DNA of 62,878 nt from Alloalcanivorax xenomutans (GTDB lineage Bacteria; Pseudomonadota; Gammaproteobacteria; Pseudomonadales; Alcanivoracaceae). Shown here in pieces: positions 13,389-30,881 of this stretch (position 1 is the first letter of the stretch; each line of letters begins with the position of its first letter). The notes beneath the pieces were generated by a model that was given only the letters and a program-made list of their open reading frames with translations, was not told the DNA's origin and searched no databases. The DNA lies in assembly GCF_900217905.1 (NCBI RefSeq), contig NZ_OBMO01000025.1, forward strand, positions 1 through 62,878. The letters are read 5' to 3'. Made by a program: the position numbers and the translations under genes.

Positions 13389-13674
13389 TGAGGGCACTTC
13401 TTCCTGGGGCGACCGTTACCGGAGATTACCACGGCTGGCGGGTCCACACGGAGTCCGTTGCGGACGTTGGCCCGCTCAGGTGCGCGAATTCCCCTGGCTG
13501 ACGGGGTGTTGTACCCTGCGCGGGCACCCTGTCGGCGCCAACCGTCACCACGGCCTCGCCCTGTGCCAGCGCCGATGCCGACAAAAAATATGCACAATTC
13601 AACAGATCTCAGAAAAACGCCACGGCGCTTCCGCGATAGCACGCCGGCCTTGTTAAGGAAACGAGAGCATTCAA

Positions 13675-15759: not shown

Positions 15760-15797
15760 CTGCGATGATGGCCCACGGGAGGGGCTACGAAACTGCC

Positions 15798-15863
15798 GTG
15801 GGAGCTTACCTGCAAGCGAATCTTGAGGCCCGGAAGCCCATTCGCTTGCAGGCAAGCTCCCAC
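15798..15863. repeat. REP-like palindrome
   Basis: Arms 15798-15821 and 15840-15863 pair over 24 bp with one mismatch, around an 18-nt loop. The arm (GTGGGAGCTTACCTGC, then AAGCGAAT) is almost identical to the one at 57978. It lies 38 bp after the WG-repeat gene stop and may act as its 3' processing hairpin. Confidence 0.8.
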
Positions 15864-15938
15864 AGCGGCGTTGTAGCAACCTCCGAGTTTATGTCTCCAA
15901 GGCCAGAAGAATATACCTGCGCTTGCCAGTTACCTCGA

Positions 15939-16048
15939 AGCGGAGCCGCGTTATGCCTTTGCGGGACCCTGTCGAACAGGGACGTTCGACAGGGAGCCTA
16001 CAGGGGTGTATTCACGGCGTTCCCGCAAAGGCATAACGCGGCTCCGCT
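15939..16048. repeat. Structured intergenic element, copy 1 (conserved 54-nt core)
   Basis: Perfect 28-bp arms (15939-15966 and 16021-16048, starting AGCGGAGCCGCG) enclose a 54-nt core. The core holds an 11-bp stem CCCTGTCGAAC/GTTCGACAGGG with loop AGGGAC, then a linker with GAGCCTACA and GTATTCACGGCGT. Copy 2 at 29590-29695 has the same core length and linker, three compensatory pair changes in the inner stem, and arms of different sequence. The outer arm alone also occurs at 29376-29447 with a short loop. Confidence 0.8.
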
Positions 16049-16133
16049 GTCCTCGATGGAGGAAGGCCCCGACCAAACAAAAGTGGGGTCGCCTAGGCAA
16101 CTGCGACAACGCTTTATGAATCCAGGAAAGAAT

Positions 16134-16209
16134 TGGAGCGGGAAACGAGATTCGAACTCGCGACCCCAACCTTGGCAAGGTTGTGCTCTACCAGCTGAGC
16201 TATTCCCGC
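16134..16209 (-). tRNA. tRNA-Gly (anticodon GCC)
   Basis: Read on the minus strand this is a 76-nt cloverleaf. It starts GCGGGAATAGCTCAGC, has anticodon loop CTTGCCAA with GCC, T-loop GTTCGAATC, acceptor stem GCGGGAA/TTCCCGC, discriminator T, and an encoded CCA (16134-16136). Confidence 0.96.
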
Positions 16210-16236
16210 TTGTCACTGCTTCGCCTTAACGAAATA

Positions 16237-16256
16237 GTGGCGTCCCCTAGGGGAGT
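16237..16256 (-). pseudogene. Duplicated 3' end of tRNA-Glu
   Basis: The 20 bp GTGGCGTCCCCTAGGGGAGT are identical to 16421-16440, the CCA end, acceptor 3' strand and start of the T-arm of the tRNA-Glu gene. The rest of the tRNA is absent. Such a 3'-end copy is what integration of an element at a tRNA gene leaves behind. It could also be a relic of a tandem tRNA-Glu duplication, since the copies are only 184 bp apart. Confidence 0.7.
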
Positions 16257-16421
16257 ATTCACCGCTACGCGGTTCACCCCTTCGGGGCTGTCTCCGCAAG
16301 CGAAGACATTCCGTGTCCCCGGCTTTGCCGGTGACCGGTCGAACCCCACTAATGAAGGTTCGACTCTTGGGTTCCAATCAACGAAGTGCCAGTTCGCGGA
16401 CCGTTACCGAACCCGATTCAG

Positions 16422-16497
16422 TGGCGTCCCCTAGGGGAGTCGAACCCCTGTTACCGCCGTGAAAGGGCGGTGTCCTAGGCCACTAGACGAAGGGGAC
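16422..16497 (-). tRNA. tRNA-Glu (anticodon TTC)
   Basis: Read on the minus strand this is 76 nt. It starts GTCCCCTTCGTCTAGTGGCC, has anticodon loop CTTTCAC with TTC, T-loop GTTCGACTC, acceptor GTCCCCT/AGGGGAC, discriminator G, and an encoded CCA (16422-16424). It lies upstream of tRNA-Gly on the same strand and could be cotranscribed, although 212 bp separate them. Confidence 0.96.
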
Positions 16498-16805
16498 CCG
16501 GACTTGTCGGCCAATCCCGTTGCGGGACTGCCCTGTCAAGCGGCGCGTAGTCTAGGAATCCGGGCCGGCAGCGTCAAGGGGAAATTCCCCCGGTCGACAC
16601 CGTTCGTTCATAATCCGTTCAATCTCGGCGATTCCGACGGTTTTCCCCTGACCGGGCGGTCCCCTGTTGACCCTTCCGCGACACTGCTATATGCCTGTTA
16701 CCCCAGCCGCCCGTCGGATTCACGGGTTGAGATCCGCCTGCGGCCGGCCCACTTTCGAGTGGGCCGCACCAGGCCCAACATCACAATAGAGACCGGGAGA
16801 TCCCA
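16498..16805. other. Gene-free stretch between tRNA-Glu and the GST gene
   Basis: I see no gene, strong hairpin or repeat here. It must contain the promoter of the two tRNA genes (reading left) and of the GST gene (reading right). An AGACCGGGAGA purine stretch just before 16806 is the GST ribosome binding site. Confidence 0.6.
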
Positions 16806-17456
16806 ATGACCATCAAACTGTATGGCGCCATGCTGTCGCCGTTCGTGCGTAAAACCCGCGTGGTACTGGCCCTCAAAGGCGTGGAACATGAGACCGTCAA
16901 CGTGGACCCGCGCAACGCGCCGGACTGGTATCGGGACCTCAACCCGCTGGGACGCATCCCGGCACTGGACTACGACGGCCAGATTCTCGCCGATTCCGGG
17001 GTGATTTGCGCCTTTCTGGAGAAGAAACACCCCGAGCCGTCCCTCTACCCGGAGGATCCCTACGAGTACGCCCGCACCCTGTGGTTCGAGAAATTCGGCG
17101 ACTACGAGCTGGGCGTCAACTGTACCTTCGGCGTGTTCTTCAACCGGGTGGTGCGGCGTCTGATGGGCAAGGAAGTGGATGAAGCGGCGGCGCAGAAAGC
17201 GCTGCAGGGCGCGGTGCCACCGCTGCTCGAGTACCTGGATCGGGAACTGGAAGGCAAGACCTACTTTGTTGGCGAACGGCTCACCGTCGCCGATATCGCC
17301 GTGGCCAGCCAGTTGGTGAACTTCCAGCACGCCGGTGAAGGGGTCGACCAGTATCCCAACCTGGCCGCCCACAAGGAACGCCTGCACGCCCTGGAGCCGT
17401 TCACCCAGACCATAGCCAAGGAAAGCGGCTTCCTCACCAAAGTCCTCGGCGGCTGA
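16806..17456 (+). CDS. Glutathione S-transferase family protein
   Basis: The protein is 216 aa. The N-terminal thioredoxin-like domain (MTIKLYGAMLSPFVRKTR) carries Ser11 at the usual activating position, cis-Pro in NPLGRIPALDYDG, and the Glu/Asp-Ser motif ADSGVICAFLE for glutathione binding. The C-terminal helical domain has LTVADIAVAS, the N-capping box. It is a cytoplasmic detoxification or stress enzyme of unknown substrate, transcribed alone. Confidence 0.93.
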   Translation: MTIKLYGAMLSPFVRKTRVVLALKGVEHETVNVDPRNAPDWYRDLNPLGRIPALDYDGQILADSGVICAFLEKKHPEPSLYPEDPYEYARTLWFEKFGDYELGVNCTFGVFFNRVVRRLMGKEVDEAAAQKALQGAVPPLLEYLDRELEGKTYFVGERLTVADIAVASQLVNFQHAGEGVDQYPNLAAHKERLHALEPFTQTIAKESGFLTKVLGG

Positions 17457-17987
17457 TCAGGGCGGCCCTCCAGCCCCCTCGCCCGTGCCCTCCCCGGTGT
17501 CCTCCACGGACACCAGGGCGGCACGGCCATCGGTGGCGATACGCACCCGCGCCAGACCGCCCTGCCGTAATCGCCGCTCCAGTTCCAGCGCCTTATCCTT
17601 TGGCGCGAAATAGGCTTCGATACCGTATTCCACCGTCACTGAACCCACCCGCACCGCGCGGATATGCCCGCGAATAAAATCACCCGGCGGCGGTGAATAA
17701 CGGGTATCAACGGCTTTCCACACCCGCCCTTTCCGGCGCAACTGCACATACACTTCCCGCCCTACCCGCGGCACTCCCACTTCCGGCATCGGCGCCTCAC
17801 TGATGTCGTAGCGCAGGCGGGCATAGTTGCCGCGCAACAAATCACGCGGATCCACCGGCACCGTGCGCAGCACCACTTCCTTGCCGAACCAGACCGGATA
17901 CCGCGCATAGCCCAGCAAACCGAGCAGCACCAGAACCTGCAACACCAGCGCCGCCACCAGGGCGCGCAGCCGCCAGCGCCTAGTCAT
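17457..17987 (-). CDS. GDYXXLXY-domain membrane-anchored protein
   Basis: The protein is 176 aa. An N-terminal membrane helix (residues 7-26) is followed by a domain with LLRGNYARLRYDIS, which matches the GDYXXLXY family signature. That family nearly always sits next to DUF2157 membrane proteins, as here. The start overlaps the end of the DUF2157 gene by 8 bp. The function is unknown; the pair probably forms one envelope unit. Confidence 0.85.
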   Translation of the reverse strand: MTRRWRLRALVAALVLQVLVLLGLLGYARYPVWFGKEVVLRTVPVDPRDLLRGNYARLRYDISEAPMPEVGVPRVGREVYVQLRRKGRVWKAVDTRYSPPPGDFIRGHIRAVRVGSVTVEYGIEAYFAPKDKALELERRLRQGGLARVRIATDGRAALVSVEDTGEGTGEGAGGPP

Positions 17988-19224
17988 GGGCCACCTCCGG
18001 ATCGCGCTGGCGCCAGTAGCGGGCGCCAGCGTAGAGAATGCCGGCCATGACCAGGAACAACAGGGCCGCCCCCAGGTAATCTCCAATCAGATCGACATAA
18101 CGCAACAGCGCCAATACCGCCACCGTGCCCAAACCGGCGAAGAAACGGCGCTGGTCGGCGCGCAGCAATCCCTGGCGTATCCAGGCCATGGCCACCAGCA
18201 GAACCACCAGATTGGCCGCCACGGTCCAGTACAGGCTCTGTTCCGGCCGACCCAGACCATGCGCCAGCAGCACCCCGGCCAGCGCCAACCAGGGCAGGAT
18301 GCCACGGGGCTTGAGGGCGATCGCCGCCAGCAGCAGCGGCAGCGCCGCCCACAACCCGGGATCCAGCCAGCCCCAGTGGCTGTGCAGATATTCTTTCCAG
18401 AGGTCCTCGAACGTCAGCGGCAACAGCACCAGCAACGACAACCGTCCAAGCCACGGCAAGGGTGCCCAACGCGAGTCCCCGCGCAGCTCCAGCCGCTGGC
18501 AGAGCACCTGAGCCAGGACCAGAAGAGCAAGATTGAAGGTCAGATGGCCAGCCCGCCAATGGGGCCCGAAATCGGTGTGGAACACCCAGGACAACATCAG
18601 GTTGAGCCACAACACCAGAGCCGCCAGCACCGGCAGCATCACAACATTGGAATGGCGGCGCCAGGCCAGCCAGCCGGCCACACCGAGAAACACGATGCCA
18701 GCCCAGGGTGGCGAGAACGGGGTTTCCATCACCATCCACAGGGCGGTGAGCGCCACCAGCAGCAGGGTCACCAGCAGGCGCCGGGAGAAAAAGGCCACCG
18801 GCAACGTGCCGATCATCCACAACAGCACGCCGTTGGGGAAATGCTCGCCAAGGTGGTACATCTGCCCCACCAGCATGATCGAAGCGCCATAGCAGACCGC
18901 GCCGAGAAACAGCCAGCCACCCCCCTCGCCATGACGCCCCCAGCGCCACACCCCTACCCCGTTGGTGGCCACGGTGAGGGCCAGCAGAGCGGCGAAGCGC
19001 ACGCCCCGGGGCAGACCGTCCCAATGGGCGGACACCACCAGCAGCAGCGCCAGGCCGATGAACAGCAGAGCACAGGCGGTCAGCACTCGCGCGCCCAGGG
19101 AGCCGCCACTGGCTTCCAGACCCTTGCCATAACGGGCCAGAATGCGCCGGGCCTGATCCTCCTCGATCAGCCCCTCGGCCAGCCACTGTTGCATCTCCCG
19201 GCGCAGAGCGTCTTTACGTATCAC
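17980..19224 (-). CDS. DUF2157 domain membrane protein
   Basis: This is 414 aa with a cytoplasmic N-terminus containing the family motif (QWLAEGLIEEDQARRILARYG), followed by about 11-12 hydrophobic helices rich in Leu and Trp. It is coupled to the GDYXXLXY gene by overlap. No biochemical function is established for the family. Confidence 0.88.
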   Translation of the reverse strand: MIRKDALRREMQQWLAEGLIEEDQARRILARYGKGLEASGGSLGARVLTACALLFIGLALLLVVSAHWDGLPRGVRFAALLALTVATNGVGVWRWGRHGEGGGWLFLGAVCYGASIMLVGQMYHLGEHFPNGVLLWMIGTLPVAFFSRRLLVTLLLVALTALWMVMETPFSPPWAGIVFLGVAGWLAWRRHSNVVMLPVLAALVLWLNLMLSWVFHTDFGPHWRAGHLTFNLALLVLAQVLCQRLELRGDSRWAPLPWLGRLSLLVLLPLTFEDLWKEYLHSHWGWLDPGLWAALPLLLAAIALKPRGILPWLALAGVLLAHGLGRPEQSLYWTVAANLVVLLVAMAWIRQGLLRADQRRFFAGLGTVAVLALLRYVDLIGDYLGAALLFLVMAGILYAGARYWRQRDPEVAHD

Positions 19225-19294
19225 GTTGTTCCCAATCCTTTTGGTGCGGGCTTCCTGAGCATGCTAGCACGCTGGGTGCGCGCGGCTCTCCGCA

Positions 19295-19373
19295 GCCCGC
19301 TGTAGCAGCCTGCCTTGCGGTCGAATAGACTCCTGCGTCCGAAAATTCGCCTGCGGGGCAGGCCCCTACAGAG
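19295..19373. repeat. Imperfect REP-like hairpin
   Basis: CTGTAGCAGCCTGCC and GGCAGGCCCCTACAG form imperfect outer arms around AATAGACTCCTGC and ATTCGCCTGCGGG, a degenerate form of the same CCTGC/TTCGC palindromes seen elsewhere in the window. A single half-element with CGCGGCTCGTGGG also lies at 20957-20990. Confidence 0.5.
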
Positions 19374-19415
19374 ACTTCGAATCAACACCGGGCGAACCGC
19401 GACATTTTCAAGCCG

Positions 19416-20903
19416 TCAAAGCGGTAACCCCAGCCGCCGAGCTTCCATGCGGCGCAGGAATTCCAGCATCACCTGCCGGTACAGGTCCTCGCCCAGCCAC
19501 AGGTCCTCGACGCCGGCATCGATGTTGGGATTGTCGTTCACTTCCATCACCACCACCTGATCGCCGGACTGCTTCAGGTCCACGCCGTACAGGCCGTTGC
19601 CCATCAGCCGGGCGGCCTTGAGCGCCACTCTCAGCACCTTCGGCGGCACTTCGCGGATCGGTACCGTGCGCGCGTTGCCGGAGGCGGTTTTGCCGCCGTC
19701 CTTGTGATGATAAATCTGCCAATGCCCCTTGCTCATGAAGTACTGGCAGGCAAACAGCGGCCGGTTGTTGAGCACGCCGATGCGCCAGTCGTAATCGGTG
19801 TACATAAAAGCCTGGGCCAGCACCACGGCGGATTGTTTCAGATAGCCATGCAGGGCGTTGCCCAGCGCCTCGCGGTCCTCCACCTTGCTAATGCCACGGG
19901 AGAAACTGCCGTCCGGGATCTTCAGCACCATCGGCAGTCCCAGTTCCCCGATCAGGCTGTCCACCTGTTCGGCGGTGTCGCTGAACACAAAGGCGGTGGG
20001 CGGCACCGGCACGCCATTGGCCTGCATCAGTTCCGCCAGATAAATCTTGTTGGTACAGCGCAGAATCGAGCGCGGATCGTCGATCACCACCATGCCTTCC
20101 TGCTCCGCCTTGCGGGCGAACTGATAGGTATGGTGGTCAATGGCGGTGGTCTCGCGAATGAACAGGCCGTCGTATTCACCCAGGCGGGCGTAGGCGTCGC
20201 GGCCGACGATTTCCACCTTGATGCCCAGTTGCCGGCCGGCCCGTGCGAATCGCTTCAAAGCGGCGCGATTGCTCGGCGGCATGGCCTCCTCGTCGTTCAC
20301 CAGCATGGCCAGGTCATAGCGTTCACCACGCCGCCGGCGCGGGCCGCGCCAGACACGGGCGTTGAACTGCTCCAGGGCACGGGCGAAGGCATCTTCCTGG
20401 GCACCCTTGACCTGTTTCAGACTCGGCGTCTTGATCGCCTCCAGGGTCCACCGGTCCCGGCGCCGGAACGACACCCGCAGAATCGGACACGGCAACTGGT
20501 CAAAGATCTGCCGCGCCAGTTCCGCCAGCCCTTCCTGCTCGGTTTGGCCGAAGTAGATATTGAACGTCACCTTGGTGGCATCGCCGCCCTGCTTCTTCAT
20601 CGCCTTGTCCAGCGCCGACTCGAAATGCTCGAAGTGCAGGCCGTACAGCGCCTTGTAACTGAGGTCGTTGACCGTGCGTACAGAGGGCATGACGCGCTGA
20701 CCGCGGGCCTCCGCCAGCAGCGAACAGTAGTAGCCGGGGGACAGGTATTTGTAGCTGCGGCACAGATTGATCACCTGCACTTTCTTGTCGGTGCAGACCG
20801 GCTCGGAAGCCTGCAGGTAATCACGGGCGGACAGCAGATTGCGGGCGGGATAGTACGCCGCCCAGTCCGCCGGGTCGTCCACCAGGATAATGACTTGGCT
20901 CAT
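19416..20903 (-). CDS. RimK-like ATP-grasp ligase with RLAN N-terminal domain
   Basis: The protein is 495 aa. Residues 1 to about 190 form the RimK-like N-terminal domain (begins MSQVIILVDDPADWAAYYPA). The C-terminal part is an ATP-grasp domain: IYLAELMQANGVPVP, the glycine loop DGSFSRGISKVED, and the metal-binding EVNDNPNIDAGVED. RimK homologues ligate glutamate or other amino acids to a carboxylate of a protein or small molecule. The real substrate is unknown. It is transcribed alone. Confidence 0.88.
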   Translation of the reverse strand: MSQVIILVDDPADWAAYYPARNLLSARDYLQASEPVCTDKKVQVINLCRSYKYLSPGYYCSLLAEARGQRVMPSVRTVNDLSYKALYGLHFEHFESALDKAMKKQGGDATKVTFNIYFGQTEQEGLAELARQIFDQLPCPILRVSFRRRDRWTLEAIKTPSLKQVKGAQEDAFARALEQFNARVWRGPRRRRGERYDLAMLVNDEEAMPPSNRAALKRFARAGRQLGIKVEIVGRDAYARLGEYDGLFIRETTAIDHHTYQFARKAEQEGMVVIDDPRSILRCTNKIYLAELMQANGVPVPPTAFVFSDTAEQVDSLIGELGLPMVLKIPDGSFSRGISKVEDREALGNALHGYLKQSAVVLAQAFMYTDYDWRIGVLNNRPLFACQYFMSKGHWQIYHHKDGGKTASGNARTVPIREVPPKVLRVALKAARLMGNGLYGVDLKQSGDQVVVMEVNDNPNIDAGVEDLWLGEDLYRQVMLEFLRRMEARRLGLPL

Positions 20904-21008
20904 CGGGGTTCCATTGAGAAGGCTAAGGACGCCGGATGTCCGGCGTCCTTAGAATATCGCGGCTCGTGGGCCGCTCCTACAGAAACCGCCATGCCCGGTC
21001 CGAGCCGG

Positions 21009-22184
21009 TCAGTTGCCCTGGTAGACCACGCGGTAGATGGCGCCGGCGTGATCGTCGGCGATCAGCAAACTGCCGTCGGCGGCCTGCATGACGTCCGCCG
21101 GACGTCCCCAGCGGGTGCCGTCCTCACGCAGCCAGCCGCTGATGAATGGCTGGTACCCGGTAACCTTGTCGATGCCTTCCACGCCGACCCGGGTGACCCG
21201 GTACCCGGCCGGCGTGCTGCGATTCCAGGAACCATGCTCGGCGATGAAGATGTCACCCCGGTAGTCCTCGGGAAATTGCTCCCCGGTATAGAACGTCATA
21301 CCCAGCGGCGCGTGATGCGCCGGCATGGTTTGCATCGGCATGGCGAATTCACCGGGATCATGGTCCTTGCCAAACTCCGGATCCGGCACCGTGCCACCGT
21401 GGATAAACGGATAGCCGAAGTGTTCGCCGTCCTCGCGCACCCGGTTGAGTTCTTCCGGCGGGATCTCGTCGCCGAGCATGTCGCGGCCATTGTCGGTGAA
21501 CCACAACTGCCCACTGCGCGGATGGAAATCAAACCCCACCGAATTGCGCACTCCGCGAGCCACCGTGGTCATTTCCCCCGAGTCCGGGTCATAGCGTTGG
21601 ATGGTGGCGTAGGGTTCTTCCCGGTTGCAGATGTTGCACGGCGCCCCCACCGGCACGATCAGTTTCCCTTCGCGGTCAAACGCCAGATACTTCCAGCCGT
21701 GATGGGAATCGGAGGGAAATTGGTCCGTCACCAGCTCCAATGCCGGCGGATCGTCCAGATGATCGAGAATGTCCGGCAGCGCCAGAATCCGGTTCACCGC
21801 CGCCACGTAGAGGGTGCCATCGCGATAGGCGATCCCGGAGGGCATGTTCAGCCCTTCCGCCAGCACCCAGGTGCGCTCGGCGCGGCCATCGCCATCGGCG
21901 TCGCGGATCGCGTAGACCTTGCCCTCGTCACGGGAGCCGGCGAACACGGTGCCATCCTCGGCCTGGGCCAGTTGCCGGGCGTTGGGAACATCGTCGGCGA
22001 ACACCGTCAGAGTGAAGCCCTCGGGCAGGGTCAGGCTGTCCACCGGCAGGGACCCGGCCATGACGGGAGCGGCAAAACCGAGTAGCAGGCCGGCCAGCCA
22101 GCGCCGGCCGTGAATGGCGGGAAGATCGCTATGAGCCCGCGGCGTCCTTCCGCGCGCCGGGGTGTCCTGCTTTTTCCAAGGCAT
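21009..22184 (-). CDS. PQQ-type sugar (sorbosone) dehydrogenase-like beta-propeller protein
   Basis: This is about 391 aa with a likely signal peptide ([18 protein letters not shown]) and a six-bladed propeller of the glucose/sorbosone dehydrogenase type: [20 protein letters not shown], then [24 protein letters not shown], and [19 protein letters not shown] insert carries two cysteines. The start is uncertain. The first usable ATG (22184, MPWKK) lies 56 bp inside ccmE in another frame, and no GTG or TTG is closer, so translation may be coupled to ccmE. It is periplasmic, and PQQ dependence is inferred from the family. Confidence 0.82.
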
Positions 22185-22587
22185 CTTGAACCTCCGGAGG
22201 CATGTAGGTCTCATCGTGTTTGGCGAGCACTTCTTCCGCCTCGAACCGTTCCCGGCTCACCAGCGTGCCGTTGGCGACGATACCCTGCCCTTCACGGAAC
22301 AGGTCCGGCAGGATGCCCTGGTAATGGACGGTGAAGGTGCCCTTGCCGTCGGTGACATCGAAAGTCACGTCCAGAGTGTCGGGGTCGCGTACCACCGATC
22401 CCTCCATAACCAGACCACCCACACGCATTTTAGTGCCCACCGGCGCTTCACCGTTGACCACCTGCTGCGGGGTGAAAAACAGATTGATGTTCTGGCGCAG
22501 GGCGTACACCGCCAGAGCGGTGGCCAGGGCCAGCCCCAGAAACACCGCCAGCACCACGATCAGGCGCTGTTTACGAACCGGATTCAT
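22129..22587 (-). CDS. ccmE: Cytochrome c maturation heme chaperone CcmE
   Basis: The protein is 152 aa. An N-terminal membrane helix (9-29) is followed by a periplasmic OB fold. The heme-binding motif is [13 protein letters not shown], with the covalent ligand His124 and Tyr128. It accepts heme from CcmC with the help of CcmAB and delivers it to the CcmF/H ligase. It overlaps ccmD upstream by 17 bp. Confidence 0.97.
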
Positions 22588-22768
22588 GCTTAACCTCCCG
22601 GGTTTCCCGTCGCCACTGGCGAGCCACGTCCTGGCGCACCCGCGCCAGCTTGCGCGCCGCCAGCGCCATATTGATCACGATCAGCAGCGCACAGATACCG
22701 TAAGCGCTCCAGACATAGGGCCCGTGCCGGCCCATGGCCAGAAATTCCGCGAAGCTGTCGAAATACAT
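22571..22768 (-). CDS. ccmD: Heme exporter subunit CcmD
   Basis: The protein is 65 aa with one membrane helix ([19 protein letters not shown]) and a basic cytoplasmic tail, the typical CcmD form. The start [20 protein letters not shown] is characteristic. Its first base overlaps the last of ccmC, and its end overlaps ccmE. It stabilises the CcmABC-CcmE complex. Confidence 0.93.
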
Positions 22769-23517
22769 CAGTGCCCCTCCACCAGTTTGCGTACCCAGCC
22801 GCTGCGGCGCTCCCGGCTCAGCACTTCGGCCCGGGCCCGCATCAGTACGTTGGCGGCGTACAGCAGCCACATGCCCAGCATGCTGATCAGCAGCGGGTAC
22901 TTCATGGCCGGGTTGATGGAGGATTCGCTGAACAGGTTCAAGGTCGCCCCCTGATGCAGGGTGTTCAGCCACTCCACCGAATACTTCACGATCACCACGT
23001 TGATCACCCCGACCAGGGCCAGCAACGAGGCGGCGCGGGCGGCCTGGCGGGGATCACGGATGGCGGACTGCAGCACCATCACGCCGAGATACATGAACAG
23101 CAGGATCAGCATCGAGGTCAGGCGCGCGTCCCACTGCCAGTAGGTGCCCCAGGTGGGCTTGCCCCAGATCGCGCCGCTGATCAGGGACACCGCCGCCAGC
23201 ACGGCACCGAACGGCGCCAGCGCCTTGAGCATGACCTCGGCCATTTTCATCCGCCAGACCAGGCACACCAGCCCGGCCACGCCCATGGCGATGTAGCCCA
23301 TCAGGGCGCCGCTGGAAGCCGGGACATGCAGATAGATGATGCGATAGCTGTCACCCTGGTAACGCTCCACCGGCGCGTAGGCCAGCCCCCATACCAGGCC
23401 GATGGCGAGAATGATCAGCGCCAGCGGCCACAGCCACGGCAGCACGGCATCGGCGAACCGGTAAAAGTAGCGCGGCGAGCCCAGTTGGTGATACCAGCGT
23501 TTCAGAGTGTTCCACAT
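22768..23517 (-). CDS. ccmC: Heme exporter/handling protein CcmC
   Basis: This is 249 aa with six membrane helices. The tryptophan-rich WWD loop is GKPTWGTYWQWDARLTSML, and conserved histidines flank it (YLHVPASS and the later EWLNTLHQGA). It transfers heme to CcmE in the periplasm. It follows ccmB after a 59-bp gap on the same strand. Confidence 0.97.
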   Translation of the reverse strand: MWNTLKRWYHQLGSPRYFYRFADAVLPWLWPLALIILAIGLVWGLAYAPVERYQGDSYRIIYLHVPASSGALMGYIAMGVAGLVCLVWRMKMAEVMLKALAPFGAVLAAVSLISGAIWGKPTWGTYWQWDARLTSMLILLFMYLGVMVLQSAIRDPRQAARAASLLALVGVINVVIVKYSVEWLNTLHQGATLNLFSESSINPAMKYPLLISMLGMWLLYAANVLMRARAEVLSRERRSGWVRKLVEGH

Positions 23518-23576
23518 AACTTCGACTCTATTTTTTTGTCGTCGGCCCCGGCGGTTGTCGTCATCGACCCCGGCGG

Positions 23577-24248
23577 TCAGTCTCCGGCGCTGATACGCAG
23601 GCCCATGGCCACCGCCAGTGGCCCCAGACTCAGCGCCAACGCCAGCAACGCGCCCAATACCGCCAGCAACCCCTGGGTGGGAGAGCCGTCCACGGCGGCG
23701 CGCACCACACCGGCGCCGAACACCAGCACCGGAACATAAAGCGGCAGAATCAGCAGCGCCAGCAAAATGCCGCCGCGATTCAGGCCCACGGTCAACGCCG
23801 CGCCAATGGCGCCGATCACCGTCAGCGTCGGCGTTCCCAGCAGCACGCTGTAAGTCAGCGTGGCCAGTGCCGGCACCGGCAGCTGCATCATGTAGCCCAA
23901 CAACGGCGCCATCAACGCCAGCGGCAAGCCGGTCAGCAGCCAGTGCGCCAGCAGCTTGGCCGAAACCGGCAGCACCGACACCACCGGCGCGGTCAGCATC
24001 TGATCCAGGGCACCGCTTTCCTGGTCACGGCGGAACAGCCCGTCCAGCGACAGCATCACCGCCAGCAGTGCCGCCACCCAGACCACACCCGGCGCCACCA
24101 GCGCCAGCAATTCCGGCTTCGGCGACAACCCCAGCGGGAACAGACTGACCACCACCATGAAAAAGAACAGCGGCTGCACCATATCCGCCGGGGACCGCCA
24201 GATCAGAGTCAGTTCCCGGCGCAGGGTCGCCCACCAGGGTCCGCTCAT
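23577..24248 (-). CDS. ccmB: Heme exporter permease CcmB
   Basis: The protein is 223 aa with six hydrophobic helices. The start MSGPWWATLRRELTLIWRSP and the motif QPLFFFMVVVSLFPLGLSP are typical of CcmB. It overlaps ccmA by 4 bp (ATGA). With CcmA it powers release of holo-CcmE. Confidence 0.96.
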   Translation of the reverse strand: MSGPWWATLRRELTLIWRSPADMVQPLFFFMVVVSLFPLGLSPKPELLALVAPGVVWVAALLAVMLSLDGLFRRDQESGALDQMLTAPVVSVLPVSAKLLAHWLLTGLPLALMAPLLGYMMQLPVPALATLTYSVLLGTPTLTVIGAIGAALTVGLNRGGILLALLILPLYVPVLVFGAGVVRAAVDGSPTQGLLAVLGALLALALSLGPLAVAMGLRISAGD

Positions 24249-24850
24249 GCCGGCGCCTCCGTGCCCAAATGCAGCCGCCGCACATCATCGCCGACCCGGT
24301 GGTGGGAGGTATACAGCACTAAAGTGCCGTTGCCGGCGGCATCACGTATGCGCTGGTCCAGGCGTGCCACCCCGCTCTGATCGATGGCGGTGTAGGGTTC
24401 GTCCAGCACCCACACTTTTTTTGGCGCCAGCCACAGCCGCGCCAGCGCCACCCGGCGCTTTTGGCCGGCGGAGAGATGCGCCGCCGGCACGTCTTCGAAG
24501 CCGTACAGGTCCACCGCGTCCAGGGCCGCGTCCACGTCTCCCGGCTGGTTGTTCAGCGCGGCACTGAAGCGCAGATTCTCACGGGCGGTCAGTTCTTCAC
24601 GCACGCCGGGCTGATGCCCCAGATAGAGCAGATCCGGCGCCAGCGGCGAATGCCAGCGCACCTGGCCTTCATAAAAGCCATGCAGCCCTACCAGAATCCG
24701 CAACAGAGTGGTCTTGCCCGCCCCGTTGGCGCCGGTAATCTGCCAGATCTCGCCGGCGCGGGCCTGGAACGCCAGATCACGGAACAGCACGCGCTCATCC
24801 CGTTCGCACTGGAGCTGCCGGACGGTCAGACGAAGGGAGTCACTGCTCAT
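24245..24850 (-). CDS. ccmA: Heme exporter ATPase CcmA
   Basis: The protein is 201 aa. Walker A is GANGAGKT (40-47), the signature LSAGQ is 126-130, and Asp150-Glu151 close Walker B. LSAGQKRRVALARLWL is the CcmA-specific form of the signature. It is the first gene of the ccmABCDE unit. The rest of the pathway (ccmFGHI) is about 19 kb away at 44210-48159. Confidence 0.96.
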   Translation of the reverse strand: MSSDSLRLTVRQLQCERDERVLFRDLAFQARAGEIWQITGANGAGKTTLLRILVGLHGFYEGQVRWHSPLAPDLLYLGHQPGVREELTARENLRFSAALNNQPGDVDAALDAVDLYGFEDVPAAHLSAGQKRRVALARLWLAPKKVWVLDEPYTAIDQSGVARLDQRIRDAAGNGTLVLYTSHHRVGDDVRRLHLGTEAPA

Positions 24851-24957
24851 GGGGCTCCTGATCAGGGAATAACAGGCGTTGGGCTCGGTTCGGCGGCGCA
24901 GTATAGCATGTATTTCCGCTATGATTGGTGGGACAAAACAGCATACGGGGAGAGCCC

Positions 24958-25425
24958 ATGGGCATCGAAATCGAACGCAAATTCCTGGTCCGCGACAGCG
25001 CCTTTCTCGATGGCCTCGACGGCGAGCGTCTGACCCAGGGCTATCTCAGCCACGACAAACGGGCCACGGTGCGAGTGCGGCTCAAGGGCGGCAGCGCCTG
25101 GCTCACCATCAAGGGGGAAACCCACGGCGCCAGCCGCAGCGAATTCGAATACCCGATCCCGCCACGGGACGCCCGCGCCATGCTCGACGAACTGTGCGGC
25201 GAAGGCGTCATCGACAAAACCCGCTACCTGATTCCCCACCAGGGCCACACCTGGGAAGTGGATGTCTTCCACGGCGACAACCAGGGCCTGATCGTCGCCG
25301 AACTGGAACTGGACCACGAAGACCAGACCTTCCCTCTGCCCCCGTGGCTCGGCGACGAGGTCACCGGCGACCCGCGCTACTACAACAGCGCGCTGAGCAA
25401 AACACCCTACAAGCAGAGCAGTTAA
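24958..25425 (+). CDS. CYTH-domain protein (inorganic triphosphatase-like)
   Basis: The protein is 155 aa. The N-terminal signature IEIERKF (ExExK) defines the CYTH superfamily, and the charged residues RVRLK, TIKG and ELELD line the triphosphate tunnel. The compact single-domain form is common in bacteria and usually hydrolyses inorganic triphosphate. The start at 24958 follows GGGGAGAGCCC. The stop TAA lies inside a heptamer array. It is divergent from ccmA. Confidence 0.92.
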   Translation: MGIEIERKFLVRDSAFLDGLDGERLTQGYLSHDKRATVRVRLKGGSAWLTIKGETHGASRSEFEYPIPPRDARAMLDELCGEGVIDKTRYLIPHQGHTWEVDVFHGDNQGLIVAELELDHEDQTFPLPPWLGDEVTGDPRYYNSALSKTPYKQSS

Positions 25426-25605
25426 TAGTTAAAAATGAACAGTGAATAGTGCGCGAGAGGGGGCAAGCGAAACTGAAAGGCAAAGCGCCGCGTGCAACGG
25501 CTGAGCAGGTCCCTTGCCGCGGAAAACAAAATTTGAAACGTCATTTGCGATACCGCAATCTTTCTGTTTTTTTAACTGTTCACTCTTAACTGTTCATTGT
25601 TCCCT
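25420..25605. repeat. Intergenic element bounded by inverted heptamer arrays
   Basis: Left array (25420-25447): AGTTAAT, AGTTAAA, AATGAAC, AGTGAAT. Right array (25571-25605) is the same repeat on the other strand: TTTAACT, GTTCACT, CTTAACT, GTTCATT, GTTCCCT. The 120-bp interior has no gene. It includes GCAATCTTTC next to the right array, which resembles AAAGATTG in the barA-side element at 62644-62700. The CYTH stop codon (25423-25425) is within the left array. Confidence 0.75.
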
Positions 25606-25634
25606 GCCTTTTCCTTGCTCTATTATGGTGCATA

Positions 25635-25692
25635 CCCCAAGGACGACCTCGGGGCGCGGCGTTGAGCGCCGCCTGTTCCGGGGACGACCCCG
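25635..25692 (+). promoter_or_regulatory. Guanidine-II (mini-ykkC) riboswitch
   Basis: Two small hairpins with ACGA tetraloops match the class: CCAAGGACGACCTCGG (loop 25643-25646) and CGGGGACGACCCCG (loop 25679-25692, ACGA at 25684-25687). A GCGGCGTTGAGCGCCGC hairpin separates them. The second hairpin is just upstream of the Shine-Dalgarno AAAAGGA (25698-25704) and start codon of the SugE/Gdx gene. Guanidine binding would pair the two loops and free the ribosome site. Confidence 0.88.
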
Positions 25693-25711
25693 CCACGAAA
25701 AGGACCTCGTC

Positions 25712-26026
25712 ATGGCGTGGTATCTGCTGTTCCTCGCGGGTCTGCTGGAAACCGGCTGGGCCATCGGGCTAAAATACACCGAAGGTTTCACCCGCCCGCT
25801 CCCGACCTTGCTCACCGTCACCGCCATGGCCATCAGCTTCTGGCTGTTGTCCACGGCGATGAAAACCCTGCCAGTAGGCACCGCCTACGCGGTGTGGACC
25901 GGCATCGGCGCCACCGGCGCGGTGATTCTCGGTATCGTGCTGTTCCAGGAACCGGCGACACCGGCCCGGTTGCTGTGCGTGGCCGCCATCGTCGGCGGCA
26001 TCATCGGACTCAAGCTGATAGGTTGA
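25712..26026 (+). CDS. gdx: SMR-family guanidinium exporter (SugE/Gdx)
   Basis: The protein is 104 aa with four membrane helices. The essential proton/substrate glutamate is Glu13 in [18 protein letters not shown], and the KYTEGFTR stretch marks the Gdx/SugE subgroup rather than EmrE. The guanidine-II riboswitch in its leader supports guanidinium as the natural substrate. The ATG at 25712 is set by AAAAGGA; upstream in-frame ATGs would place the riboswitch inside the gene. Its 3' end overlaps the convergent metR gene by 17 bp. Confidence 0.94.
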
Positions 26027-26936
26027 CCCGCCGGATGCCGGACAGGTTTTTGAAGCACAGTGCCTCGGCGGTCTCCATGAAGTCCTGAATAAAGGGCACC
26101 GTCTGATCCCCCTGGCGTACCGCGGCATACAGGGTGCGCCAGACCCCTTCCTCGCCCAGCCTCACGCTTTTCACCAAACCCAGATCGAGATACTCGGTCA
26201 GCGCCCAGTTCGGCAGCGCCGCCACGCCACGACCAGCGGCCACCAACTGCACCATCATCGGCGTCAACTCGGCGGTGCGCACCGAGCCCGGCGCCACCCC
26301 GGCCGGGTCAAGGAAAGCGGTGAACACGTCCAGCCGTTCACGCTCCACCGGATAGGTGATCAAGGTCTGCTCCGCCAACGCCCCGGGCTCAATAAAGCGC
26401 CGCGCCGCCCATTCACTGTCACGCGCCACCGCCAACACCAGCTCATAGCGGAACAGCGGCAGGTAGCACACCGCCGGGTCGTCCACCGGGTCCGAGGTCA
26501 CCACCATGTCCAGATCGCCCCGGGTCAGCGCGGTCAGCGGCTCGAAGCCGAAGGCGGCGGACAGATCCAGCTCCACTTCCGGCCAGTCCTCGCGGAACCG
26601 GTCCAGCGCCGGCATCAACCACTGGAAGCAGGAGTGGCATTCGATGGCGATGTGCAGACGGCCGCTGTCACCGGCGGAGAGCCGCTTCAATTCGGTCTCG
26701 GTTTTCTTCACCAGCGGCAGGATCTGCCGGGCCAGCGCCAGCAGGCGGCTGCCGGCGGTGGTGAACCGCACCGGCCGTGTGCGCCGCACGATCAGTTCCA
26801 ACCCGAGCCGGTGCTCCAGATCCTTCAACTGATGGGACAGGGCGGACTGAGTGACATGCAGCCGCTCCGCGGCTTCCACCAGGGAGCCGGCATCGTCGAT
26901 GGCCTGCAGGGTGCGCAGATGGCGCAGCTCCAACAT
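26010..26936 (-). CDS. metR: LysR-type regulator MetR
   Basis: The protein is 308 aa. The N-terminal winged helix ([20 protein letters not shown], then [11 protein letters not shown]) and the effector domain match MetR. It is divergent from metE, the classical MetR target, at a distance of 102 bp. MetR activates metE with homocysteine as coactivator. Confidence 0.94.
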
Positions 26937-26949
26937 GAGATACCCTCAT
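26935..26949. promoter_or_regulatory. Possible MetR site
   Basis: ATGAGATACCCTCAT is a perfect 5-bp inverted repeat with a 5-bp spacer, the spacing of the MetR consensus TGAA-N5-TTCA but with TGAG/CTCA arms. It overlaps the metR start codon, as expected for autoregulation. No exact TGAA-N5-TTCA copy is present in the intergenic region, so the assignment is tentative. Confidence 0.35.
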
Positions 26950-27038
26950 ATTAAAGATTAGATATTTGATTTTGTCTCAACAGACAGTCCCACCACAATA
27001 GCGCCATTGAAATCCGACCGCATTCGAAAGGACCGATC

Positions 27039-29327
27039 ATGACCACCTTGCACAACCTGGGCTTCCCGCGCATCGGCGCCCGCCGGGAATTGAAACAGGC
27101 ACAGGAGGCCTACTGGGCCGGCACCTTGCAGCAAAGCGAACTGGAACACGTTGGCCGCAGTCTGCGCGAACGGCACTGGGCCCTGCAGGCACAGGCCGGC
27201 ATCGATCTGCTGCCGGTGGGCGACTTTGCCTGGTACGACCAGATTCTGGAATTCTCCTGCCTGCTCGGCGTGGTGCCGGCGCGCTTCGGCCAGGACGCCG
27301 ATGCCGACGTGGATCTGGACACCCTGTTTCGCATGGCCCGTGGCCGCGCGCCCACCGGCACCCCGGCGGCCGCCTGCGAAATGACCAAGTGGTTCGACAC
27401 CAACTACCATTACATCGTGCCGGAACTGGCCGCCGATCAGAGCTTCCGCATCGCCCGCGAAAGTCTGTTCGAGCAGGTCGAGGAAGCCAAGGCCCTCGGC
27501 CACGATCCGAAACCGGTGATCCCCGGTCCGCTGACCTACCTCTACCTGAGCAAGGGCGAGGACTTCGACGGCGCCGACGACAGCGCCAAGCTGGCTCTGC
27601 TGGAGACTCTGATTCCAGTTTACCGCCGGATTCTGCAGCGGTTGGCGGATCAGGGCGTGCAATGGGTGCAGATCGACGAGCCGATCCTGGTGCTGGATCT
27701 CCCCGACGCCTGGCAGCGCGCCTACCTGCGGGTGTATGACCAATTGGCCGCCGCCAGCACCGCCCGGCTGCTGCTGGCCACGTATTTCGGCGCGCTGAAG
27801 AACAACCTGTTCACCGCCCTGGAACTGCCGGTGGCCGGCCTGCACCTGGACCGGGTGCGCGGCGATGACGATCTGGAACAAGTGATCAGCCGGCTCGGTG
27901 ACAAGGTGCTCTCCCTCGGCTACATCAACGGCCGTAATATCTGGCGCACCGACCTGGATGCCGCTCTGGCCACCCTGAAGCCGCTCAAGGAGGCACTTGG
28001 CGACCGTTTGTGGCTGGCGCCCTCCTGCTCCCTGCTGCACAGCCCGGTGGACCTGGACCAGGAAGACAAGCTCGATACCGAACTGAAAAGCTGGCTCAGC
28101 TTCGCCAAACAAAAGCTGGATGAACTGGCCCTGCTGGGCGGCGCGCTGGACGGCGATGCCGCCGCCGAGGCGGGCCTGCAAGCGCAACGCGAAGCACTGC
28201 GGGCACGCTCTGAATCCACCCGCATACATAACCCGGCGGTGGCCGAGCGGATCGGCGCCAGCGGCGACCTTTCCCGTGATCGTCTGAGCCCGTTCGCTGA
28301 ACGTATCGCCAAACAACAGGACGCGCTGAAACTGCCGGCGTTCCCCACCACCACCATCGGCTCTTTCCCGCAGACCCGGGAAATCCGCGAAGCGCGCCGG
28401 GACTGGAAAGCCGGCAAACTCGATGACGCCGCCTACACCGAACAGATGAAGCAGGAAATCGCCCGCTGCATCCGTTATCAGGAAGAAGTGGAACTGGATG
28501 TGCTGGTGCACGGCGAAGCCGAGCGCAATGACATGGTGGAGTATTTCGGTGAGCTGCTGGAGGGCTTCGCCTTCACCCGCTTCGGCTGGGTGCAGAGCTA
28601 CGGTTCCCGTTGCGTGAAACCGCCGATCATTTTCGGCGACGTGCGGCGCCCCAATCCGATGACGGTGGAATGGGCCCGCTACGCCCAATCCCTGACCGAT
28701 AAACCGGTGAAAGGCATGCTCACCGGCCCGGTGACGATTCTGCAATGGTCCTTCGTGCGCGACGATCAGCCGCGCTCGGAAACCTGCAAGCAGATCGCCC
28801 TGGCCCTGCGTGACGAAGTGCGGGATCTGGAAAACGCCGGCATCAAGGTGATCCAGATCGACGAGCCGGCCCTGCGCGAAGGCCTGCCGCTGCGCCAGGG
28901 GGAATGGCAAGCCTACCTGGACTGGGCGGTGGACTGCTTCCGCCTGGCCACCGTGGGAGTCGATGATGATACCCAGATCCACACTCACATGTGCTATTCC
29001 GAGTTCAACGACATCATCGAGGCGATCGCCGCCCTGGACGCGGACGTCATCACCATCGAGACCTCCCGTTCCAATATGGAGCTGCTGGATGCGTTCCGCG
29101 ACTTCCAGTACCCCAACGACATCGGTCCGGGGGTGTATGACATCCACTCCCCCAACGAGCCGGACGTGGCCTGGATGGTGGGTTTGATGGAAAAAGCCGC
29201 CGAGCGGCTGCCGAAGGAACGGCTGTGGGTCAATCCGGATTGCGGCCTGAAAACCCGCAAGTGGGAAGAGACCCAGGGCGCCCTGGCCAACATGGTGGCC
29301 GCCGCCAAACAACTGCGCACGGCGTAA
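27039..29327 (+). CDS. metE: Cobalamin-independent methionine synthase MetE
   Basis: MetE transfers the methyl group of 5-methyltetrahydropteroyl-triglutamate to homocysteine. The 762-residue length is standard, with an N-terminal and a C-terminal barrel. Visible motifs are [19 protein letters not shown] at the start, and in the C-terminal barrel [26 protein letters not shown], and the zinc ligands in HTHMCYSEF and [11 protein letters not shown]. The AAAGGA Shine-Dalgarno sits 8 bp before the ATG. It is controlled by the divergent metR. A long open frame on the opposite strand is a codon shadow. Confidence 0.98.
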
Positions 29328-29375
29328 AAAAGGTCCATGGCGGCTTAGCGGGAGCCGTCATCCTCCATCAGGGAC

Positions 29376-29447
29376 AGCGGAGCCGCGTTACGCCTTTGCG
29401 GGAACACCGTGAAGCAGAGTCCCGCAAAGGCGTAACGCGGCTCCGCT
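29376..29447. repeat. Perfect 28-bp palindrome (same arm as structured element copy 1)
   Basis: Arms 29376-29403 and 29420-29447 pair perfectly around a 16-nt loop. The arm AGCGGAGCCGCGTTACGCC, continuing TTTGCGGGA, is the outer arm of the element at 15939-16048 with one base changed on both sides (a compensated change). It lacks the 54-nt core. Confidence 0.85.
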
Positions 29448-29589
29448 TCGAGGTAACCGGCAAGCACAGGCGTTCTTTCAACCACTGTGAAACCTCTGAA
29501 AAACGTCATGCAGAGGTGAGAGTGCGATTTCTCCTGTCCTGAAAGGTTCGTCGTTGTCGGAGCCCCAAACGCGGCGGTTCACTTCCAAG

Positions 29590-29695
29590 CGGGTCTGTAC
29601 GAAGGCCTTCCGGGACCCTGTTTGACAGGGACGTCAAACCGGGAGCCTACATGGACGTATTCACGGCGTTCCCGGAAGGCCTTCGTACAGACCCG
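29590..29695. repeat. Structured intergenic element, copy 2 (conserved 54-nt core)
   Basis: Perfect 26-bp arms (29590-29615 and 29670-29695, starting CGGGTCTGTACG) enclose a 54-nt core 44/54 identical to the core at 15967-16020. The inner stem CCCTGTTTGAC/GTCAAACCGGG differs from copy 1 at three pairs, and all three changes keep pairing. The loop AGGGAC and the linker GAGCCTACA...GTATTCACGGCGT are unchanged. Confidence 0.8.
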
Positions 29696-29714
29696 TGCCC
29701 CCCCGATGAAGCCC

Positions 29715-30881
29715 TCACTCCACCTGCAACAACCGGTCCGGCCCCAACTCCACCGGCGCGGGATCGCCGGGTAGCCGCCACTGGCCGGCGTGCCTTTCCG
29801 CCGGCTTGTGATCCACCTCCGGCAGATTGGTCAGATCCCCCACCGCGTCCCGATACAGATCCGTGCGGTAGCATTGCGCGGCGAAAGTGCTTTTCTCTTC
29901 GATGCGGCCCTGCCGCCATCGCTGCATCTCGCCGAGCAGAAATTCCGCGTCCGAGCGCCAGGGAAAATTGGCCTGGTAGGCGGAGAAGACATGGAAGTGA
30001 TGACGCGGAAACGGCTGACCAGTGAGCCCGCCGGGCAAGCGCTGGGAAAACGGCGCGCCGATCACTTCCGCCGGCACGCCCAGCCAGGCCGGATGCGCCA
30101 GCCACTCAAGGCACTCTTGCAGACGCTCATCGGCATGGGTCGCCGCCCGATACAGGGCGCGCAGCAGAGCGCGGTGGGCATCCGGATGGGCCGCCGCCCA
30201 CTCACGGGTCACCGCCAGCACTTTTTCCGGCGCGTTCTCCCAGATCTGGTAGCCGGACAGAATGCAATGTCCGGCACCGGTGAGCGCCGCCAGACTGTTC
30301 CAGGGTTCACCCACGCAGAAGCCGTCGATATGACCCAATCGCAGGTGATCCACCATTTGCGAGGGCGGCAGCACCACCAGTTTGACGTCGTGGTCCGGGT
30401 CGAGTCCCGCCACCGCCAGCCAGTGACGCAATTGATAGGCGTGACAGGAAAACGGGAACACCACCGCCAGTACCAGCGGCGCGTCACCGGCGCTGGCCCG
30501 GGCCGCCACCAGCTTGTTCAGCGCCACCGCCATGTCCTGGGGCGAGGGCCCCGGCGCCAGCGCGCACAAACCGTGGTACAGCATCGGCGACACGGTCACG
30601 CCATTACCGTTGACGCCCATGGAAAAGGCGGTGGCCAGCGGCTTCTTGATGCAACCCAGGCCGAGCGATGTGCCCAACAGCATGGGCGCCAGCATCGGCG
30701 CCGCGTTCACCTGCCCCACCAGCAAGCGATCACGCAGGCTGGCCCAGCTCCATTCCGGCTGCAGTTCCACTTCCAGTCCCTCATCGGCGAAATAACCGGC
30801 TTGCTGGGCCACCACCAGCGGCAGGCTGTCGGTGAGTGGCATATAGCCAATGCGGACATGCTGAGTTTGCTTCATCGTCAC
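29715..30881 (-). CDS. nasS: Nitrate/nitrite sensor NasS
   Basis: The protein is 388 aa of the NrtA/CmpA substrate-binding fold (HVRIGYMPLTDSLPLVVAQQAGYFADEGL), without a signal peptide. The absence of a signal and the pairing with the ANTAR protein upstream (4-bp overlap, ATGA) identify it as the cytoplasmic sensor NasS rather than a transport protein. In known systems NasS holds NasT inactive until nitrate or nitrite binds. Confidence 0.9.
   Translation of the reverse strand: MTMKQTQHVRIGYMPLTDSLPLVVAQQAGYFADEGLEVELQPEWSWASLRDRLLVGQVNAAPMLAPMLLGTSLGLGCIKKPLATAFSMGVNGNGVTVSPMLYHGLCALAPGPSPQDMAVALNKLVAARASAGDAPLVLAVVFPFSCHAYQLRHWLAVAGLDPDHDVKLVVLPPSQMVDHLRLGHIDGFCVGEPWNSLAALTGAGHCILSGYQIWENAPEKVLAVTREWAAAHPDAHRALLRALYRAATHADERLQECLEWLAHPAWLGVPAEVIGAPFSQRLPGGLTGQPFPRHHFHVFSAYQANFPWRSDAEFLLGEMQRWRQGRIEEKSTFAAQCYRTDLYRDAVGDLTNLPEVDHKPAERHAGQWRLPGDPAPVELGPDRLLQVE

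Follow-up and report, generated by a model that had tools for sequence, protein, structure and literature searches.

A dispersed palindromic repeat of gammaproteobacteria whose transcript may present a twin CsrA/RsmA site

The window analyzed here, a 62,878-nucleotide (nt) stretch of the Alloalcanivorax xenomutans genome (contig NZ_OBMO01000025.1), carries two full copies of a palindromic intergenic element, both on the plus strand and both between convergent genes. A preliminary description, made from the sequence alone, proved exact in its coordinates (15939-16048 for copy 1 and 29590-29695 for copy 2), in the length of the cores (54 nt each, identical at 44 of 54 positions) and in the outer arms, which are perfect palindromes of 28 and 26 bp. 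The core pairs that it reported as covarying, 7-22, 8-21 and 9-20, do read CG/TA, GC/TA and AT/GC in the two copies, and the arms differ in sequence yet stay paired. Copy 1 consists of arms 15939-15966 and 16021-16048 around the core 15967-16020, and copy 2 of arms 29590-29615 and 29670-29695 around the core 29616-29669; with our two search models, R1 and R2, the expectation values (E) are 5.0e-20 and 1.2e-16 for copy 1 and 1.1e-21 and 5.1e-18 for copy 2. Compared with 200 dinucleotide shuffles, both copies have far lower folding energies, whichever strand is folded (z -8.7 to -11.4).

Each core contains two hairpins. Hairpin 1 (15967-15994 in copy 1, 29616-29643 in copy 2) has the apical loop AGGGAC (15978-15983 and 29627-29632), a form of ANGGAY and a predicted first site of the CsrA/RsmA type; its assignment draws on sequence, fold and covariation within the family. 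Hairpin 2 of copy 2 (29645-29667) has the loop ATGGAC (29651-29656), a TAC/GTA stem and a TTCAC bulge, and fits the CsrA consensus obtained by systematic evolution of ligands by exponential enrichment (SELEX). In copy 1, the loop of hairpin 2 (15996-16018) reads AGGGGT (16002-16007); the second motif with its GGA has been lost, the sole such row among 74 aligned copies. The loop AGGGAC and the linker ACATGGACGT amount to one motif displayed twice (ANGGAY, closed by a C-G pair), which the preliminary description had overlooked.

A third, shorter feature lies on the minus strand at 29376-29447. The arm of copy 1 does recur there (27 of 28 bases), as had been noted, but the site is not free of a core: between the copy-1-type arms its loop reads, on the minus strand, CTCTGCTTCACGGTGT, a 16-nt core remnant that retains the 3' end TTCACGGYGT and lacks the GGA hairpins. 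Model R1 finds it (E 5.7e-5, 29391-29439), and the same short form is also present in relatives. The earlier proposal that cores were inserted into existing palindromes is unsupported, because the supposedly coreless site contains this shortened core, and we rejected it on that ground. The short derivative, on the minus strand, and copy 2, on the plus strand, make up a divergent pair unit at approximately 29363-29711, between metE and a convergent gene (29715-30881). Its ends (CTCCATC...GATGAAG) were placed by eye, homology with relatives ends near these points, and no target duplication was recognized around it. Copy 1, together with its upstream gene, lies within a segment (~13410-16065) in whose place three other genomes (G006, G007 and G008) have other DNA.

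Covariation and loop counts for the wider family were taken from an alignment of 74 diverse copies (A3), in which an outer stem holds hairpin 1 and hairpin 2 in a three-way junction. Here, 26 of 29 pairs have changed on both sides, in 606 cells compared with 184 in shuffles, and the covariation score is 0.690, against 0.186 for shuffled alignments and at most 0.180 when slid. The outer arm columns hold little information, whereas near fixation is seen in loop 2, in the C-G pair that closes it and in the AGC and TTCACGGCGT that flank it. GGA is found in loop 1 of all 74 copies and in loop 2 of 73, the exception being copy 1 of the window. The strict form C[ANGGAY]G occurs in loop 1 of 60 copies, in loop 2 of 70 and in both loops of 57; departures from it in loop 1 are mostly one base shorter (AGGA). 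The TAC/GTA stem of hairpin 2 is exchanged for CCC/GGG or CAC/GTG with the loop untouched. Of 143 matches, 100 have both ANGGAY loops, and in these the loop starts are 23 to 26 nt apart; the two GGA are ~20 nt apart.

At three loci (L099, L086 and L219), other structured DNA breaks into the apical loop of hairpin 2; the flanks of L219 are nearly identical to those of L221, which does not have this interruption.

In the part of the source available to us, the CsrA SELEX consensus is given as RUACARGGAUGU, with ACA and GGA invariant and the site mostly in a hairpin loop, and one CsrA dimer is reported to bridge two sites 10 to 63 nt apart, with an optimum above 18 nt (PMC7652899). Judged by its sequence, hairpin 2 is this consensus and hairpin 1 has the same C-G-closed loop; the GGA of the 74-copy set lies in hairpin loops, as in a CsrA/RsmA site, and the spacing of the two falls within the range for dimer bridging. 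The reading that we favor, with a probability of roughly 0.55, is that the element is a dispersed intergenic gammaproteobacterial repeat resembling a miniature inverted-repeat transposable element (MITE), the transcript of which is a twin CsrA/RsmA site. The plus-strand transcript would fold into a three-way junction in which two hairpins sit on a long outer stem of freely variable sequence; each hairpin would present a C-G-closed A-N-G-G-A-Y loop, a putative CsrA/RsmA-type site, and the fixed geometry would suit one CsrA/RsmA dimer on both loops. The close copies are mostly divergent, and therefore transcription from either side should cross one copy in the sense direction and yield read-through RNA with the twin site. 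The local effect would probably be on transcript 3'-end stability or termination and, summed over tens of copies, CsrA/RsmA could be titrated. The preliminary description had held the function to be unknown. That no Rfam family reaches its gathering threshold over the element, in a search of the whole window, agrees with this view; the match of the fixed parts to a twin CsrA/RsmA site allows it to be improved upon.

A further line of evidence comes from the mismatches. Among 166 distinct arms, isolated mismatches in the outer palindrome comprise 99 G.T, 18 A.C and 66 other distinct contexts (binomial probability of G.T against A.C, 1e-14, with related copies not being independent). Outside the model columns, in parts of the arms where no preference of the model for G.T can act, the numbers are 38, 8 and 29. 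A count by alignment columns is weaker, some rows being out of register, with G.T against A.C at 44 versus 27 in the arms and 45 versus 23 in hairpin 1; the 59 well-paired rows give 23 versus 0. An earlier 87-copy set gave 44 versus 2 in hairpin 1, 15 versus 0 in the arms and 28 versus 7 in hairpin 2. Equality would be expected if both strands mattered alike; therefore, one strand either is of consequence as a single strand in folded form or is routinely transcribed in the sense direction, and most simply the folded strand is RNA. The claim that the element shows selection on structure is thus upheld to the extent that a structure of one strand is kept; for the arms it was too strong. In the relative G030, 29 of the 40 fetched copies fitted the pattern and, with near-identical cores, their arm changes were already matched on both sides. 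Correction of palindromes on a hairpin template (template switching) could produce such matched changes without selection, so arm covariation alone is not proof of selection; stronger evidence comes from the fixed loops and from the strand-asymmetric G.T excess.

One copy in the window's own genome (L006, G000 C13:188583) is a hybrid with a left arm of one type and a right arm of the other, which breaks the palindrome; it looks like the product of recombination between copies.

The family proved to be present elsewhere, as had been surmised, and the suggested search of related genomes with a covariance model revealed it to be large. BLAST and a sequence pattern identified, in the window's genome, nine copies that bear a core; over named genomes, the pattern detected 27 stretches, belonging to Alteromonas, Marinobacter, Halospina, Alcanivorax/Alloalcanivorax, Pseudomonas/Halopseudomonas, Thiopseudomonas and one uncultured gammaproteobacterium. 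Model R1, built from 53 copies, gave 24 matches in the window's genome and 80 in G030; with up to 150 candidates scored per genome, it gave at least 141 in a Marinobacter (HL-58) and at least 108 in Halospina. It matched 25 of 57 genomes (own genome included), 73 of 369 gammaproteobacterial genomes, the carriers spanning 66 genera, and 51 of 298 genomes in the family around Pseudomonas sp. MYb185. Model R2 matched 32 of 398 genomes of the phylum, all of them in the window's own class, the 398 being given without the share that lies outside that class. Within one genus, the distribution is patchy: three genomes (G014, G025 and G028) have no R1 match and four others (G021, G030, G032 and G035) have 29 to 75. 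Model R2 also matched (E <= 0.01) every one of another 12 Pseudomonadaceae genomes, ten of which had given no more than weak R1 matches. In the weak-R1 group of large Pseudomonadaceae genomes, there is a second form (L185-L212) with other stems and arms and up to 33 matches (G573, E <= 0.01); two strict C[ANGGAY]G loops were present in all 24 loci checked (21 distinct). Searches of viral contigs by exact pattern and of phages by blastn, the latter with two forms of query, found no match to the element, and the Pseudomonas form had no match in plasmids.

The layout of the copies bears on how they would be transcribed and how they spread. Of neighbors within 1,500 nt of each other in G030, 27 of 28 are divergent, and among the close pairs (<=600 nt) of the collected loci, G030 included, 37 of 45 distinct pairs are divergent and the other eight codirectional. 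Comparison of orthologous intergenic regions, another suggestion of the preliminary description, revealed presence/absence polymorphism: downstream of metE, six of 12 genomes of the genus have a model match (E <= 4.1e-7), three have a shortened or interrupted element (by eye) and three have none, a thirteenth, truncated locus being left outside the 12. In G006, the pair at the metE locus is in the opposite orientation, with collinear flanks. Such polymorphism and the dispersal of the copies are what is expected of a MITE. No terminal sequence outside the arms is shared by all genera. On pDCA, a plasmid of Ancylobacter novellus (L213 39-1630), an ISAs1-family transposase (PF13808, PF01609) is flanked by two divergent elements, both inside the terminal repeats CAGGGCAATCGCACTA, with a 10-bp duplication, AGGTTGGGGT, outside; terminal inverted repeats and a target duplication were found together only in this transposon. 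A second plasmid record, from Xanthobacter flavus, gave an equally good core-search match. The pDCA transposase matched none of the other element loci compared. The element is absent from six other plasmid regions of the ISAs1 type and from a viral contig encoding a relative of the transposase. The ISAs1 transposase was accordingly rejected as the general mobilizer; because it is unmatched elsewhere and the six ISAs1-type regions are element free, the pDCA insertion sequence (IS) is one carrier and not an established general engine.

Two unusual arrangements of copies were also seen. At L241 1432-2653 (G003 C1:94431-95652), there are six direct tandem copies at ~227-bp spacing, each unit with an extra short inverted repeat, and at four Alteromonas loci (L030, L034, L042 and L048) several elements are clustered within ~0.5 kb.

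Three other explanations must be weighed. The element could be the end of a mobile element that acts at the DNA level, its hairpins being read by a transposase as single-stranded DNA or a cruciform and its likeness to CsrA sites being due to chance. The divergent pairs (27/28 and 37/45, as above) do resemble inverted ends, copy number ranges from 0 to 75 within one genus, the pDCA transposon holds an element within each of its ends and has a 10-bp duplication, and G.T is tolerated in DNA hairpins as well as in RNA. We nevertheless consider this explanation unlikely, since the hairpins are missing from short derivatives at several loci, six other ISAs1-type plasmid regions are element free, the inverted ends of DDE transposons require no strand-specific loops, and both loops fit the CsrA consensus, at a suitable spacing, in two differing forms of the element. 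Somewhat less probable still is a neutral, selfish repeat with no host-level function, in which the arms are kept paired by hairpin-templated correction and the cores are alike through spread and transfer. The both-side-matched arm changes among the near-identical cores of G030 (29/40 copies) are as this explanation would have them, and the unmatched arms of the A/B hybrid L006 show recombination between copies; however, it does not predict the asymmetry of G.T over A.C, nor that the GGA loops would be retained in carriers from 66 genera while the stems of the hairpins were rewritten.

The least probable of the three, and to our minds a doubtful one, is that the long stem alone serves as a bidirectional transcription end or as a stabilizer of mRNA 3' ends. 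Among 158 classified copies, tail-to-tail contexts outnumber head-to-head ones (50 to 28, counts that rest on heuristic gene calling), and the position of both window copies between convergent genes, the similar bias of Pseudomonas repeats (PMC2718517, partial text) and the presence of a T-tailed hairpin (by eye) after metE in an element-free relative (L223) are all in keeping with such a role. On the other hand, a direct reading showed that neither window copy is followed, on either strand side, by the T-run that an intrinsic terminator would have, and the fixed loops and TTCACGGCGT would go unexplained. A sense element in the 3' untranslated region of the upstream gene was also considered and is not supported by orientation, the element being on the same strand as its 5' neighbor gene in 86 of the 158 copies; this figure argues against a plain 3'-untranslated-region motif, yet it fits the two-way layout.

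Several observations weigh against the twin-site reading that we prefer. Its transcription, its binding by CsrA/RsmA and any effect in the cell are what we infer from the features above, and the covariation of the arms may in part be palindrome correction. The choice of rows favors both loops, because the initial pattern used on genomes demanded GG (not A) in loop 2, though nothing in loop 1, and both loops form part of the models. Short derivatives without the GGA hairpins persist at several loci, copy 1 of the window is missing one GGA, and the plasmid copy folds only modestly below its shuffles (z -2.3). The strand of the element is not tied to that of the 5' neighbor gene. Detection of CsrA hardly differs between carriers (68 of 73, or 59 of 60 when restricted to good quality) and sampled noncarriers (61 of 73, or 56 of 63), with one good-quality carrier, G259, having no detected CsrA; co-occurrence is compatible with the reading but not discriminating, and these figures are too close for it to be accepted as proof. 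In favor of the reading, the window's genome does encode CsrA (G000 C35:5383-5538), and a pull-down in Pseudomonas putida with RsmA, RsmE and RsmI recovered intergenic sequences that adjoin ISPpu8 or lie at putative insertion sites of this IS; one target is listed as a long palindromic region (PMC7937890, partial text). We treat this palindrome as a lead from the literature and as a candidate member of the repeat family.

An extension of the twin-site reading is more tentative. Tens to more than 100 transposon-like repeats, arranged in such a way that transcription in either direction gives a high-affinity twin site, might act together as a distributed, mobile CsrA/RsmA sponge, by which the repeat would be wired into a posttranscriptional switch of the host and copy number would set the CsrA/RsmA tone between strains. 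Should the sites bind, the Csr/Rsm network, commonly accounted for by a handful of small RNAs, would gain a large class of repeats that has no Rfam family. The recovery of palindromic intergenic RNA in an Rsm pull-down would then have a reason, differences between strains in Csr/Rsm tone would have a mechanism, and a mobile element would be seen to exploit a host RNA regulator. With the covariance model, the repeat family can be annotated now.

The established kinds of element with which this family can be compared are the CsrB and RsmX/Y/Z RNAs and the REP and REPIN repeats. Like CsrB/CsrC, RsmX/Y/Z, Aln1a-c and CsrR1/CsrR2, which occur in the same host groups, the repeat has apical GGA hairpins suited to CsrA/RsmA titration; unlike these RNAs, which are described as carrying several GGA apiece and arising at one locus or a few, it has two sites in a dispersed palindrome and no Rfam match. 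In Alcanivorax, CsrA is widespread, and CsrR1 and CsrR2 are two other CsrA-related RNAs (PMC9788540, partial text). The highly expressed, CsrB-like Aln1a-c RNAs of Alteromonas come from one 404-bp intergenic region and were compared with the repeat by description (PMC5864184, partial text). The Pseudomonas fluorescens repeats REP/REPIN, R0, R1, R2, R178 and R200 are likewise dispersed, hairpin forming, intergenic, biased to tail-to-tail positions and MITE-like; the available part of the source describes no twin GGA core (PMC2718517). Another comparison by description concerns P. putida KT2440, in which RsmA, RsmE and RsmI bind a long intergenic RNA that is palindromic (PMC7937890, partial text). 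ISPpu8 belongs to the IS4 family and has 11-bp repeats (PMC3056050, partial text), unlike the pDCA carrier, an ISAs1-family IS that, as one carrier type, holds two divergent elements within its terminal repeats and has a 10-bp duplication. With relaxed Rfam thresholds, copy 2 gave RsmW at 15 bits, compared with a threshold of 52, and such matches look like chance hairpin matches. A text search of the literature for sequence strings of the element returned only apparently unrelated papers, and no CsrA/RsmA-binding repeat was found in the literature covered, which misses most subscription journals.

Two separate features of the window may be recorded. Adjoining copy 1, at 15798-15863, is an inverted pair, GTGGGAGC..TTCGCTTGCAGGCAAGCTCCCAC, which we take to be REPIN-like from its presumed likeness to REP. 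At 25635-25692, a Guanidine-II riboswitch match barely exceeds its gathering score (33.3 versus 32 bits); it lies upstream of an open reading frame ending at 26026, which by eye resembles a transporter of the small multidrug-resistance type.

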